Part shown: positions 5,040 to 31,593 of the stretch, piece by piece
Numbering within the stretch: the first letter of the stretch is position 1
Layout: each line of letters opens with the position of its first letter
The notes under the pieces: model-generated
What the model saw: the letters and a program-made list of their open reading frames with translations, nothing else
What the model was told of the DNA's origin: nothing
Databases searched by the model: none
Translations under genes and position numbers: made by a program
IMG/VR virus record: IMGVR_UViG_3300003886_000274
Coordinates: 1 to 35,381 of that record
DNA: 35,381 nt
Strand: one strand, 5' to 3'
DNA from: a virus

Positions 5040-5248
5040 TTGAGTCGTTCTGCAAGCATGGCGTCGGCCATTTCCCATGCAAGGGCGGCTAGATCCTCGC
5101 TCGGGGTTTTGCGAGTAATAAATTTACCGTTGTACACAATTGCAATTGTGCTTGGTAGGGCTGCTGCCGCGAAGTAGTCCCGCAGCGTCATGCCTTGAAT
5201 TGTTTCGCCAGTCGGGCCATGAGTCGGGAATGCTGGGGTTTCGCTCAT
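5036..5248 (-). CDS. Small phage protein with GMTLRDYFAAAALP motif
   Basis: I chose the ATG at 5248, which overlaps the stop of the upstream gene as ATGA; the protein is then 70 residues. A longer frame exists upstream but runs inside the neighbouring gene. The GMTLRDYFAAAALP motif (19-32) and the C-terminal MADAMLAERLK are typical of a widespread small phage protein family of unknown function. Between them lies a short strand with VYNGKFITRKTPSED. The protein is soluble, with no membrane or signal sequence. Confidence 0.8.
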   Translation of the reverse strand: MSETPAFPTHGPTGETIQGMTLRDYFAAAALPSTIAIVYNGKFITRKTPSEDLAALAWEMADAMLAERLK

Positions 5249-5568
5249 TCCGCTTTCCTCTCCACAACAAACGGTGTGACGTAATCCACGATAGCGCGCG
5301 ATACGATCCGGCCGAGTTCGGCGTCGTCGCCTTTCTCGAATGCTTCCAGAATGCTGCCAAGCCGGTTGTCGCAATCAGCGGGAGTGCCGAAGTCTGAAAG
5401 TGCTTCGGTGATGTAACACCAACCGTCGAGTTTTCTTTCTTCGTCGCCAATGAATTCAGCGATGTCCCCGAGATCAATCTCCGGCGCATCACCGTGATCG
5501 GGTGCATCGTTGTTGCGGCCCAATGAGTTGAGCGGCTGTGTAATCTGGAATGCGGTTTCAATATTCAT
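5245..5568 (-). CDS. Hypothetical protein, first gene of the leftward operon
   Basis: This gene encodes 107 residues, is strongly acidic in its first half (about residues 20-50), and is not recognised. A perfect AGGAGG lies about 10 bases before the ATG, and the start lies about 20 bases after the predicted transcription start of the promoter at 5596-5624. It should therefore be the first and strongly translated product of the leftward transcript. Acidic early phage proteins are often DNA mimics or host-takeover factors, but the sequence gives no direct sign of either. The stop overlaps the next gene as ATGA. Confidence 0.75.
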   Translation of the reverse strand: MNIETAFQITQPLNSLGRNNDAPDHGDAPEIDLGDIAEFIGDEERKLDGWCYITEALSDFGTPADCDNRLGSILEAFEKGDDAELGRIVSRAIVDYVTPFVVERKAE

Positions 5569-5591: not shown

Positions 5592-5607
5592 ACGTATATT
5601 ATTACGT
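5592..5607. promoter_or_regulatory. Putative operator 1, inverted repeat over the -10 box
   Basis: ACGTA and TACGT form a perfect inverted repeat with a six-base spacer. It covers the -10 box of the leftward promoter. It shares the GTA-N6-TAC core with the second repeat. Confidence 0.6.
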
Positions 5608-5624
5608 CCGTGATCCACTGTCAA
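5596..5624 (-). promoter_or_regulatory. Strong sigma70 promoter for the leftward early operon (PL-like)
   Basis: Reading on the minus strand, a perfect TTGACA (5624-5619) is followed by a 17-base spacer and TAATAT (5601-5596). The predicted start is near 5589, about 20 bases before the first gene. Both boxes lie inside inverted repeats, which suggests direct repression. Confidence 0.8.
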
Positions 5625-5639
5625 GTAGTTTGTTACTTG
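5622..5639. promoter_or_regulatory. Putative operator 2, inverted repeat over the -35 box
   Basis: CAAGTA and TACTTG form a perfect inverted repeat with a six-base spacer. It overlaps the -35 box of the leftward promoter and touches the -35 of the rightward regulator promoter. Its centre is 31 bases from that of operator 1, close to three helical turns, so two dimers could sit on the same face. Confidence 0.65.
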
Positions 5640-5665
5640 CGCCTACTGAGTCGATCAGGTAAAAT
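5637..5665 (+). promoter_or_regulatory. Putative promoter for the regulator gene, giving a leaderless mRNA
   Basis: TTGCGC (5637-5642), a 17-base spacer and TAAAAT (5660-5665) place the transcription start at about 5671-5673. That coincides with the ATG of the regulator gene, and no ribosome binding site precedes this ATG. The weak -35 resembles a lambda PRM-type maintenance promoter. Confidence 0.5.
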
Positions 5666-5672
5666 AGCGGCT

Positions 5673-5858
5673 ATGAAGAAGAAATCTCTTTTATCGGCAA
5701 CCAGACGGCTGTTGGAGCAACGAGACGAGACATTACCCGAAATAGCCAAAGGTGCCGGTGTCCCGTTCCAGTGGCTATCCAGCGTCTCTCAGGGACGCAT
5801 AGAGAACCCCGGCGTGATCGGGGTCCAGAAGGTTTATGATTATCTTAACGCGAGGTAG
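5673..5858 (+). CDS. Small helix-turn-helix regulator (Cro/repressor-like, 61 aa)
   Basis: From the ATG at 5673 the protein is 61 residues. A frame opening at 5610 would start inside the operators and has no binding site. A helix-turn-helix spans about 21-41 (LPEIAKGAGVPFQWLSSVSQ), followed by the conserved GRIENPGVIGVQKVYDYL tail. This is a recurring family of very small phage regulators with no dimerisation or cleavage domain, so it looks more like Cro than CI. It lies beside two inverted repeats that overlap the leftward promoter, so it is the natural candidate to bind them. Its last three codons and stop lie inside a tRNA gene. The start is probably leaderless. Confidence 0.8.
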   Translation: MKKKSLLSATRRLLEQRDETLPEIAKGAGVPFQWLSSVSQGRIENPGVIGVQKVYDYLNAR

Positions 5859-5922
5859 TGGAACGGCACCACGGCGGTCTCATGAACCGCAGACGCGAGT
5901 TCGACTCTCGCACTCGCAACCA
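5849..5922 (+). tRNA. tRNA with CAT anticodon, initiator-like acceptor end
   Basis: A full cloverleaf folds by eye over 74 bases. The acceptor pairs CGCGAGG with ACTCGCA. The D-stem GTGG/CCAC has a seven-base loop containing GG. The anticodon stem GCGGT/ACCGC closes the loop CTCATGA, with the anticodon CAT at 5881-5883. A four-base variable loop and T-stem GCGAG/CTCGC with loop TTCGACT follow, then discriminator A and an encoded CCA. The acceptor has a C1-A72 mismatch, a hallmark of bacterial initiator tRNA, and a second mismatch at 7-66. The U11-A24 pair and a G-G-U/A-C-C anticodon stem end are not fully initiator-like. Methionine or lysidine-modified isoleucine identity remain alternatives. 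It overlaps the end of the regulator gene. Confidence 0.88.
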
Positions 5923-5943: not shown

Positions 5944-5978
5944 CCCTCACGATCACCCCTTAGATCGTGAGGGGTTTT
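5944..5978 (+). terminator. Intrinsic terminator after the regulator-tRNA transcript
   Basis: An 11-base-pair perfect stem (CCCTCACGATC with GATCGTGAGGG), an eight-base loop and a following TTTT form a strong rho-independent terminator. It lies 22 bases past the tRNA CCA end. The 3' arm also contains GAGGGG, the only ribosome binding site for the next gene. Confidence 0.85.
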
Positions 5979-27107: not shown

Positions 27108-27266
27108 GGATTAAACGAGATGCCATACCCACCAGCGAGTTCGCACGATCAGACAACGCCGGAGACGGCTTTAGAGCTACAGGTCAACGCTATCCCCGGT
27201 GGGGTCGGCAATGCGCATACGATTACAGGGACGGCAAATGAATATGGGACGGCGATGCCGCCTTAT
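27108..27266 (+). repeat. Direct repeat copy A (start of tailspike 1)
   Basis: About 159 bases match 29104-29262. They include two perfect 35-base blocks (27108-27142 and 27165-27199). The first block covers the ribosome binding region and start codon. Confidence 0.9.
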
Positions 27267-29066
27267 AGTGGTGTGAATGTTTCTGAAGGATGGGCCCCGT
27301 CGCAAGGGCTGCTGTCGGGGTCGCCAATCTTCCAGTATTTTGATACGACTGATGCAAGCAGCGTATTCCAAAGCCCGTTACTTGATGGCAGTGGCGGGGC
27401 AGTGACCACGACACCAGCGGCGGTTAACGATCCGCTGGGCACGATTCTGGATTTGTCGGGCAACAACCGCACGCTGATTTCACTAACGAATGCTTCTCGA
27501 TCAACGTATGCGCTTGAAGATGGCGTGATGTGCGCTGATTTAATGGACGGCGTAGGTAAGTTCTATCCGGCAGATACAGGGATTTCTACTGCGGCAAATG
27601 TTCTTGGGACAGAGCAGGTGATTGCCTTTGTTTGGAAGTCACCGACAGCAGTGCTATCCGGCTTCAGGAATGTAGTGAGCAAGAGCGCACTGAATGTTTT
27701 CCACACCAATTCTGGCACTAGCCCGGATAATTTACGGTATCAGTTTAACGAGGCGTTCGGGGCCGTTAATCTGAACGAAGTATTTTCACCCGGCGATCAG
27801 TGGCGCACGTACTTGTTCAGATATATAGATGCCGCCACGTTAGAGGTCTGGGTCGGCACGCCGTCGTTGCCGCCAACACTGGTTGCCACTATTGACCCGC
27901 AAAATACTTACAACACCAGTACGTGGATTTTCAATCAGGGGACGCCGACAGGTGTTAATGCCGGTGCAGGCGGGTTCTTGTATCGCGGGCTGATTGTTGA
28001 CGGTGGGACGGTAACAGCAACGGATATAACCAATATTCATGACTGGCTGGTGCGCCCGCTGTTAGTTATCGGGCGTAGTGCCATGGCGGCACTGCCATCG
28101 GTATTCCAGTATTTACCGGTAGATGCCCAGGATATAACCAACGAGACAGTAACGGAGGTTGTATCGGGGACTGACCTGCGTGCGGCGGCCAACTATCCGC
28201 CGATGAGCAATCCGCTCGGAGTGTGGACGGTGCGCGGCAGTATCGAGACTGACATGATCTGGGAAGGGAATTACCTTCGCTGGACGGATGAGATTGACGT
28301 TGTGTTCCAGGCGGGCACGGCGAACCTGTCGATACCGTATGCCGGCAATCATATTTTATCGCTGGCAGTATTCTCCGGGCTCACGCAACCAGGCTTCCCG
28401 CAGACGCGGAAAATGGCTCTGTTGGCCGCGCATTATTGGGCTGGGTCAGGGACGTTAAGGTCTGACGGCCTGCTGAATGCACAGACTACTCGTGCGTGGG
28501 ACATTATTATCAATGCCGGTGGTAGTGCGGGGGAATCTGGCAGTACCGAGAACATCGGGGCTTTCACGCCGCTTGAAACGTGTGCAATCGCAGCGATGCT
28601 ATCGGGATCGACTCCTGCACTTGGGTTATCGGGCACTGCGGGTGGTACATGGCGCAATCCAACGGGTAACGAAAAGGGCTCGCTCGGAGTCAGTGAGGAA
28701 CCCAACAGGCTTGCCGGCACACGAAATGCTTATGGCGTGATCGTGGGTGGTACTGGTACGACAGCCGGAGACGTGGCTACGGGCCTTGATATCCAAAGCC
28801 CTGATCATTGGGACTTGCTGGTGGCCGCAGGGCATCCAGATGCTAATCCGCCGGTAACGCCGTTCCAGCAAATCACCTTCGGTGGTGAAGAGATGGCTAC
28901 GGGTGAGAACGCGCACTTTCACGGGTTCATAACGCTGGTTTCAGCGACAGAAATAGACGAAGCCCTTGCATCGCAAATCCTGAAGTTCTGTAATGAGCAG
29001 TGGGTACACGGCGGAGTGAAGGCGTTGCCCGGTTACTTGCTGAGTGGCTTGGCTGCTCCGGCGTGA
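27120..29066 (+). CDS. Tailspike/tail protein 1 with lectin-like domain
   Basis: This gene encodes 648 residues. Residues 1-49 are nearly the same as in the second tailspike (42 of 49 identical) and are probably the virion-attachment peptide. Residues about 75-310 have the layout of a LamG/concanavalin A-like domain (DLSGNNRTLISLTNASRSTY, then AFVWKSPTAVLSG, LFRYIDAATLEVWVG and GFLYRGLIVDGGTVTATDI). Later parts are Gly/Thr-rich and beta. No catalytic motif is clear. It probably binds surface sugars. Confidence 0.72.
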   Translation: MPYPPASSHDQTTPETALELQVNAIPGGVGNAHTITGTANEYGTAMPPYSGVNVSEGWAPSQGLLSGSPIFQYFDTTDASSVFQSPLLDGSGGAVTTTPAAVNDPLGTILDLSGNNRTLISLTNASRSTYALEDGVMCADLMDGVGKFYPADTGISTAANVLGTEQVIAFVWKSPTAVLSGFRNVVSKSALNVFHTNSGTSPDNLRYQFNEAFGAVNLNEVFSPGDQWRTYLFRYIDAATLEVWVGTPSLPPTLVATIDPQNTYNTSTWIFNQGTPTGVNAGAGGFLYRGLIVDGGTVTATDITNIHDWLVRPLLVIGRSAMAALPSVFQYLPVDAQDITNETVTEVVSGTDLRAAANYPPMSNPLGVWTVRGSIETDMIWEGNYLRWTDEIDVVFQAGTANLSIPYAGNHILSLAVFSGLTQPGFPQTRKMALLAAHYWAGSGTLRSDGLLNAQTTRAWDIIINAGGSAGESGSTENIGAFTPLETCAIAAMLSGSTPALGLSGTAGGTWRNPTGNEKGSLGVSEEPNRLAGTRNAYGVIVGGTGTTAGDVATGLDIQSPDHWDLLVAAGHPDANPPVTPFQQITFGGEEMATGENAHFHGFITLVSATEIDEALASQILKFCNEQWVHGGVKALPGYLLSGLAAPA

Positions 29067-29103: not shown

Positions 29104-29262
29104 GGATTAAACGAGATGCCATACCCACCAGCGAGTTCATATGATCAGACCGTTCCTGAAACGGCTTTAGAGCTACAGGTCAACGCTATCCCCGGCGGGG
29201 TCGGGAATGCTCATACCATTATGGGGACGACAAATGAGGATGGCGAGATTATGCCGCCCTAT
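29104..29262 (+). repeat. Direct repeat copy B (start of tailspike 2)
   Basis: This is the second copy of the repeat at 27108-27266. The perfect blocks are at 29104-29138 and 29161-29195. Recombination between the copies would delete tailspike 1 exactly in frame. Confidence 0.9.
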
Positions 29263-31593
29263 AACTTATCTTCTGAGGCAGCTTCCGTTCTTGATCGCAT
29301 GTCGAATTTGACGAGTGCTGAGACCACTGCTATCGCTGCGTTTGTCGACGGACAGGTTGCTGCGAATAATTGGGATCTTATTGACGAGTTTTTTGCCTGG
29401 GGCTTAAGCGACCCTGCGGATGCTCTGACTGGTTTCAAAACCCATACTGCGACCAATAGCGGCATGACGCACGTGCCGATGTCAGGCTATTTGGCATCTG
29501 CGAGCAGTAATTTACTAGATACTACTGTTATCCCGGCAAATCTCACTCAGTACCAAGGCGGAAATGCTTTCCACGGAACGTATTTAACCACTTATGAAAT
29601 TCAGACGCTTGCCAATCATTACTTGCACGGGGCGGATGCGCCGGTTGACGGCCCCACTATTGGAATGCAATACAGCAGCCAAATTGCTCGGTATGCTTCT
29701 CGTACTCAGCGCCATTTGCCACAAGTTTTCCAGCCTTTAGATATAGGTGCAAATATTTTTGGGACTCGATCCGCTGTTAGCCCATTCCCAAATTCACTTT
29801 ATATAGATGGGGTTCTCGCGGGGGCTCCAAACAATAGTGCTAACACTGTCGATCTTGCAACAGTGTCTATATATATAAATGGGCATCAGGATGTGTCCAA
29901 CAACCAGGTCGCCGGGCAGGCGGGGGGCACTTACTCGTACTTTATCATTGGTGGGTTTGACGGGCTTGATGTGTTGGCGCTTTCTAACGGGCTTAGTCAG
30001 TTTCTGTATGACATTGGCGTGCGCACAACATTGCATTTTGATAACACAACGTCAGCCACGGGAGAGTTTGGATCACAGACGCACCCGTTCTCGGCGGTTG
30101 GTACGTCTATTGCAGCCAACTTGACCGGAAATCAGTACGGCAACACGCTGGCTTTCGCCGAGGGAACGGTCTACGAGGAATCGTTGTTGTGGACGAATCC
30201 TATAGATGTTCACATTGATTCTTATGTTGGGGCCGGTGGGGCCGGCGCTGACCCGATCTTTGATGGTGCCGGCGATGTAACGGTGACGTGGACGCCAGTG
30301 GCATCTGCTACTGAACCGAACGTATATTTTGATGCCGCGCAGGTTATTGATGCCGAGATCGGAATTATTCTGGGGGGTAACAATTGCCACAGGCGCGCCA
30401 GTTTTGCGGACATCGACGACAGCGTGTTCCACGGGTATTCCGATGGATTTACTCGTTTCTTCGGGCCCGGCCCGGAGGCGGGCGGGGCCGACCGTCTGTA
30501 CATTCACACCGACAGCGCAACGCCTCCGGCGGCTACGAGAATGGGTATACGGCCTGACGTAGTTCTGTGGTTTACCTCCGTTAACTGCTCTATGCGTAAC
30601 GTGCTGTTGCGCCACGGGACAATCGGGAACTTTGGCGGACGCACCGGGTGCGAGGGGCTAGTTCTAGAGGATATGGTGACCATTGAGTGCGGGAACGATG
30701 CTTCTGTTGCGGGCTTTAACGGGATTAATCTCAAGGGGAACCCGGGGGTTATAACGTCGAATGCGGTTATTCGTAGGGTCATTTCTACGGGTCACTTCAA
30801 CCAGAATGGCAATGGCATAGAATTAGGGTATCTCAACAACCCGCTTGTAGAGGACTGTGATTTTTCGAACAACAATAACAGTGGGATTGAGCTTTGGCAG
30901 ACGACAACTAATGGAACATATCGACGCAACATTATCGGGAATGTGAACAAGGCATTCTGGTATGCGAATGAGCAACTTGGGATTCGTCAGGACCATATCG
31001 GAAATCGTTCGTACAACAATATCGTTCGTCAGCAATTTAACTACCGTCGACCGGAGGGCACCAGCGGGAATCCGGGGGGCATACCCTTTGACCACGATTC
31101 AGGGGACGACAACTGGTTTTTCAACAATACGGTTGTTCTTGAGGATGGATTTGTCATGGGAATGGGTGGTGGCTCAGGGATCAACACCCTGAATACCGGC
31201 GTCCGGTTTTTCAACAACATAATTTATATGGTGCGTTCTTTGGTGCAAAGCCAGCTAATGTTTGTGGGGCAGGGTGATGTAACGTACTCAGACGTTGAGT
31301 TCGCCAATAACACTTACTTTAATGCAAACAGCGGGAATTTGCGGTGGTTCACTGACTTGGAGGGGATAACTACTGGTCTGGCAACTTTCCAGGCCCAGGA
31401 AGGCAACGAGTTAGGGAGTGTTGAGGGCGATCCATTGCTGACGAACATCAACCCGTTTGTTTTCGATTACACCATTTCGGTAGCTGATGGCGGGGCGGCA
31501 TTGAATGCGGGTAATGCGTCGAGGCAGCCGGCAGATGATTACATTCTGACCCCGAGAGTTCGCAACGATGCTGGTGCATACGAGGCAACATGA
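29116..31593 (+). CDS. Tailspike 2 with parallel beta-helix domain
   Basis: This gene encodes 825 residues. After the shared 49-residue N-terminus comes a region with SGYLASASSNLLDTTVIPAN and a lectin-like segment. From about residue 310 a right-handed beta-helix begins (THPFSAVGTSIAANLTGNQY, then AEGTVYEESLLWTNPIDVHI). Stacked turns continue through RRVISTGHFNQNGNGIELGY and NNPLVEDCDFSNNNNSGIEL, as in pectate-lyase-like tailspikes. Such spikes usually cut capsule or O-antigen. Acidic candidates exist, but I cannot fix the catalytic residues. The C-terminus is AGNASRQPADDY-like, as in many right-handed beta-helix spikes. Confidence 0.82.
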   Translation: MPYPPASSYDQTVPETALELQVNAIPGGVGNAHTIMGTTNEDGEIMPPYNLSSEAASVLDRMSNLTSAETTAIAAFVDGQVAANNWDLIDEFFAWGLSDPADALTGFKTHTATNSGMTHVPMSGYLASASSNLLDTTVIPANLTQYQGGNAFHGTYLTTYEIQTLANHYLHGADAPVDGPTIGMQYSSQIARYASRTQRHLPQVFQPLDIGANIFGTRSAVSPFPNSLYIDGVLAGAPNNSANTVDLATVSIYINGHQDVSNNQVAGQAGGTYSYFIIGGFDGLDVLALSNGLSQFLYDIGVRTTLHFDNTTSATGEFGSQTHPFSAVGTSIAANLTGNQYGNTLAFAEGTVYEESLLWTNPIDVHIDSYVGAGGAGADPIFDGAGDVTVTWTPVASATEPNVYFDAAQVIDAEIGIILGGNNCHRRASFADIDDSVFHGYSDGFTRFFGPGPEAGGADRLYIHTDSATPPAATRMGIRPDVVLWFTSVNCSMRNVLLRHGTIGNFGGRTGCEGLVLEDMVTIECGNDASVAGFNGINLKGNPGVITSNAVIRRVISTGHFNQNGNGIELGYLNNPLVEDCDFSNNNNSGIELWQTTTNGTYRRNIIGNVNKAFWYANEQLGIRQDHIGNRSYNNIVRQQFNYRRPEGTSGNPGGIPFDHDSGDDNWFFNNTVVLEDGFVMGMGGGSGINTLNTGVRFFNNIIYMVRSLVQSQLMFVGQGDVTYSDVEFANNTYFNANSGNLRWFTDLEGITTGLATFQAQEGNELGSVEGDPLLTNINPFVFDYTISVADGGAALNAGNASRQPADDYILTPRVRNDAGAYEAT

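Follow-up and report, generated by a model that had tools for sequence, protein, structure and literature searches.

We found that, in the window (the whole stretch of 35,381 nucleotides of viral DNA analyzed here), the gene for an initiator-like tRNA and the 3' end of the gene for a small Cro-like regulator share 10 nucleotides of the plus strand (5849-5858, from the coordinates of the ARAGORN tRNA and the open reading frame), in what appears to be an early, divergently transcribed region. The TAG stop codon of the regulator (5856-5858) coincides with nucleotides 8-10 of the tRNA, just as the preliminary description of this DNA had reported, so that translation of the regulator would terminate at the conserved U8-A9-G10 of this tRNA. 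Compact gene packing in an early operon is the probable explanation of the overlap, and any loss of regulator message is best taken as a tolerated by-product rather than an evolved switch.

The tRNA gene (5849-5922, plus strand), which has the anticodon CAU and an encoded CCA, was the only one that ARAGORN predicted in the window, and it was also recognized by its drawn cloverleaf, by Rfam, and by an alignment with phage relatives, with which it has a common core. The covariance search that had been proposed as a check confirmed it: the Rfam model RF00005 matched positions 5849-5919 with 52.5 bits (cut-off 29), a score inside the range of 49.7-62.2 bits obtained for similar phage tRNA-Met genes. 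A C1.A72 mismatch and the pairs G2-C71, C3-G70, and G4-C69 are recognized marks of initiator tRNAs, and the cloverleaf of the window tRNA has all of these (with positions 1 and 72 unpaired), as well as CAU and A73. Only two of the three initiator-type G-C pairs at 29-41, 30-40, and 31-39 were found, the third being U31-A39, and we therefore name this tRNA initiator-like only. Other departures are an acceptor mismatch, G7.A66, and G37. Pattern scans matched this type of tRNA in many viral contigs, and it was found in Stenotrophomonas jumbo phages. We also observed, in many viral contigs, a family of phage initiator-like tRNAs that start with CGCGRGGTAG and have a short D loop; the tRNA at 5849-5922 and those of L093, L102, L107, L108, L112, and L118 are among its members. 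A published study (PMC10264068) prompted the idea that such tRNAs might replace a host fMet tRNA attacked by nucleases of the VapC type.

The regulator (5673-5858, plus strand, with its ATG at 5673) is a Cro-like HTH protein of 61 amino acids. In PHROG, residues 3-61 gave a profile match to phrog_9425, 'transcriptional repressor' (E 2.7e-11), and ten phage proteins aligned with it had identities of 31-44%; judged from these similarities, it is a real member of the family. Both genes hence pass independent tests, namely ARAGORN and Rfam for the tRNA, and phrog_9425 and the alignment for the regulator. Relatives of the regulator were found in 48 phage records. The ten aligned homologues mostly extend a few residues beyond the window's protein, which suggests that the tRNA costs the regulator only a short tail. 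Like the Cro-like repressors of phage control regions in phrog_9425, the window's regulator is a small HTH protein encoded beside divergent promoters; unlike its relatives, which have a primase or another ORF next, it is followed by a tRNA. At eight inspected loci (L082-L084 and L087-L091), the homologue is a short gene with an annotated primase or primase/helicase directly after it, L092 has a large hypothetical gene in this place, and the terminase-related contig L125 has another ORF. ARAGORN detected no tRNA in L082-L092, and none lay next to the homologue in any of the relatives inspected (L082-L092 and L125). In L125, a CI-like HTH protein faces the regulator homologue, which backs the name Cro-like, whereas the facing gene in the window (5245-5568) matches no family and has no recognized CI-like identity.

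Between the divergent genes of the window lies a perfect palindrome, CAAGTA-N6-TACTTG (5622-5639), which has its sole exact copy in the window here and is a candidate operator. A sigma-70-like promoter, TTGACA-17-TAATAT (5596-5624, minus strand), is directed leftward. For the regulator promoter, TAAAAT (5660-5665, plus strand), with a weak TTGCGC 17 nucleotides upstream, is a candidate -10 hexamer by consensus match only. With only 7 nucleotides between this hexamer and the regulator ATG, and with a weak ribosome-binding site (-3.8 kcal/mol), the regulator message may be leaderless or nearly so. Just 3' of the tRNA, an intrinsic-terminator-like hairpin (5944-5973, plus strand; 11 bp, loop of 8, GTTTTAC tail) would close the regulator-tRNA unit, and no plus-strand promoter was found between the two genes at the threshold of the scan, which makes their co-transcription likely.

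If the regulator and the tRNA are co-transcribed, mature tRNA and stop-containing regulator mRNA exclude each other, as follows from the overlap and the established function of RNase P. An RNase P cut before 5849 would fall within codon 59 (5847-5849, AAC), of which 5849 is the third base; this had been pointed out in the preliminary description, and the coordinates are exact. Maturation of the tRNA would leave codons 1-58 without a stop on a message ending at 5848, and would end the use of that molecule for regulator synthesis. A ribosome terminating at 5856-5858 would be expected to cover the acceptor and D arms, so that translation and tRNA folding would be mutually exclusive on one molecule at one time. 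Early rounds of translation may nevertheless precede maturation: with so short an ORF, the leading ribosome could reach the stop while synthesis of the tRNA is still under way. Loss of regulator message upon tRNA maturation would be a likely side effect of the packing. The earlier suggestion that one transcript can give either a regulator message or a mature tRNA stands as anatomy, provided that the genes are co-transcribed, and the nonstop message is its predicted consequence.

The same arrangement was found after unrelated genes in phages T5 and Felix O1, as packing would predict. ARAGORN predicted 61 tRNAs in T5, Felix O1, T4, and D29, and in five of these an annotated gene on the same strand had its stop; this count includes one tRNA flagged as pseudo, and the genes near tRNAs were listed by hand from the annotation. 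In T5 (AY543070; 23 tRNAs), four same-strand annotated genes stop within a tRNA: T5.057 at nucleotides 4-6 of tRNA-Met, hegC at 12-14 of tRNA-Ser, hegD at 21-23 of tRNA-Gln (the tRNA flagged as pseudo), and T5.069 at 22-24 of tRNA-Asn. In Felix O1, ORF97 stops at nucleotides 5-7 of tRNA-Ile. The window likewise has a same-strand CDS stop within a complete tRNA; the upstream genes in T5, however, encode homing endonucleases or unknown proteins and not a regulator, and the stop positions differ. The annotation of phage DaisyDussoix has hegC and tRNA-Ser with the same 14-nucleotide overlap as T5, and SE19 has the same ORF. Because the hegC/tRNA-Ser overlap is retained in a T5-related phage, CDS/tRNA overlaps are not always short-lived. 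In viral contigs with the same type of tRNA as the window, the upstream ORF often stops at or shortly before the tRNA (0, -3, -5, -6, or -8 nucleotides), and the spacing looks labile, given that L118 and L120, with similar-looking upstream proteins, have 0 and -5, respectively. In a simulation study, extension of the 3' end of a gene into its neighbor was the commoner route to same-strand overlaps (PMC3887535).

The position of the regulator's stop at tRNA nucleotides 8-10 is unsurprising in itself. These nucleotides were TAG in 91 of 171 distinct phage tRNAs from the fetched loci, a proportion that overestimates the free fraction because some of the tRNAs were fetched by a pattern requiring TAG. 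As TAG is common there, an ORF entering a tRNA in the right frame would often obtain a free stop. Another stop at 8-10 may be present at L131 (8215-8290) and at its counterpart, the tRNA-Met of L135, where a 99-amino-acid ORF finishes exactly at tRNA position 10; this ORF has a candidate membrane segment and no family match.

Compared by sequence, the phage of the window is without a close relative among the viral contigs and named phages examined. Its genes are podovirus-like, encoding a Head-tail_con portal, a terminase with Terminase_6 domains, tail proteins, and an internal virion protein. SSB, YqaJ exonuclease, and ERF form a recombination block that is directed leftward. The terminase (TerL) had its best matches at 41% identity among viral contigs and at 33% among named phages, and no close relatives were retrieved via the regulator (in viral and genome contigs), the portal protein, two early proteins, or the exact 3' pattern of the tRNA. 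Among 30 TerL-related contigs, two had a tRNA, and one other had a regulator match. The window proteins that were searched, a set without certain small ORFs and tail genes, included no recognizable integrase or CI-like repressor; as the record may also be partial, the phage could still be temperate. We also observed that two adjacent large late ORFs (27120-29066 and 29116-31593) have about 50 N-terminal residues in common (MPYPPASS.DQT.PETALELQVNAIPGGVGNAHTI) and may encode a pair of tail spikes that share an attachment domain.

The preliminary description had read the overlap as a regulatory switch, in which RNase P and ribosomes compete, tRNA maturation yields a nonstop mRNA that is tagged and degraded, and RNase P activity or the translation rate sets the regulator level. 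The exact geometry, which places the RNase P cut in codon 59, fits such a switch, the same model was put forward for tRNA-Sec and selB in bacteria (PMC8124441), and with so weak a ribosome-binding site, slow translation could lose the race. We nonetheless consider the switch quite unlikely. Only three residues would be lost, in a region that is variable among homologues, so that untagged rescue could still give a working protein, and degradation of the nonstop regulator message would depend on tagging. In the minimum-energy fold predicted for the entire transcript, the tRNA is disrupted by an inverted repeat between the regulator (5754-5770) and the D arm side of the tRNA (5859-5875). This repeat was considered as a built-in competitor fold and rejected, because 265 of 1000 synonymous recodings had equal or better complementarity, that is, the complementarity is at chance level. 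The absence of the overlap from related phages had been named beforehand as a result that would speak against the switch, and no overlap was found at homologous regulators or in related genomes, although these relatives are distant (best TerL 41%) and their lack of it is weak evidence. Control of the repressor level and of the lysis-lysogeny choice is not borne out either, considering that the regulator family is without a tRNA in the relatives inspected, that neither an integrase nor a CI-like protein was identified, and that T5 and Felix O1 have the same arrangement at unrelated genes. It is more doubtful still that RNase P processing caps regulator synthesis per early transcript at a few rounds, and that the phage thereby senses host RNase P or translation capacity to set its early repressor level.

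If the tRNA had its own promoter within the last part of the regulator gene, the two transcripts would be separate, and tRNA maturation would cost no regulator message. The hexamer TATGAT (5835-5840, plus strand), 8 nucleotides upstream of the tRNA, makes this possible as a weak separate promoter: it matches the -10 consensus at five of six positions and predicts a start at about 5847. Its best -35 element, however, matches at only three of six positions with a spacing of 15 nucleotides, the scan found no plus-strand promoter there at its threshold, and read-through regulator transcripts would still carry the tRNA; we regard separate transcripts as unlikely. A rather improbable reading takes the tRNA-like sequence for a copy of an attachment site, or for a decaying tRNA, without tRNA function, as the acceptor mismatch G7.A66 and G37 might suggest. 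Pieces of tRNAs often serve phages as attP, and tRNA-dependent lysogeny combines a tyrosine integrase with a phage-encoded tRNA of the same isotype as the one disrupted at attB (PMC10865867). However, an attP usually corresponds to no more than the 3' half of a tRNA, the window proteins searched yielded no integrase, and the window sequence has a complete cloverleaf with an encoded CCA and scores like other phage tRNAs. Two further points weigh against packing alone: for a regulator, such an overlap may have greater consequences than for a homing endonuclease, and the hegC/tRNA-Ser overlap has been retained in a phage related to T5.

If the switch were true, the overlap would be a protein-free link from tRNA maturation to phage gene control, and a simple place for testing the idea, proposed in 2021, of alternative tRNA/mRNA expression. 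Pipelines that forbid CDS/tRNA overlap may miss genes of this kind.

Neither the arrangement, known from T5, nor the nonstop-mRNA idea, known from selB since 2021, is new. In bacteria, tRNA-Sec was reported to overlap selB, and tRNA processing was proposed to yield a nonstop mRNA (PMC8124441); as in the window, a protein gene shares its 3' part with the tRNA, and tRNA and protein were proposed to be alternatives. The selB/selC pair is, however, chromosomal, functionally linked, and recurrent across clades, usually with an ORF that encloses the complete tRNA or has its stop at 46-48, whereas the window has a phage regulator and an overlap of only 10 nucleotides, which did not recur at the regulator homologue loci or in the 30 TerL-related contigs, distant as these relatives are. 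A Cro-like regulator paired with an initiator-like tRNA was not encountered elsewhere in the sequences and literature looked through. Mitochondrial tRNA/CDS overlaps in Armadillidium vulgare also set tRNA excision against a complete mRNA from one transcript (cited in PMC8124441), but belong to an organelle system with different processing. As it stands, the window offers a further phage tRNA packed onto the end of a CDS, with the tRNA's UAG at 8-10 usable as a stop.
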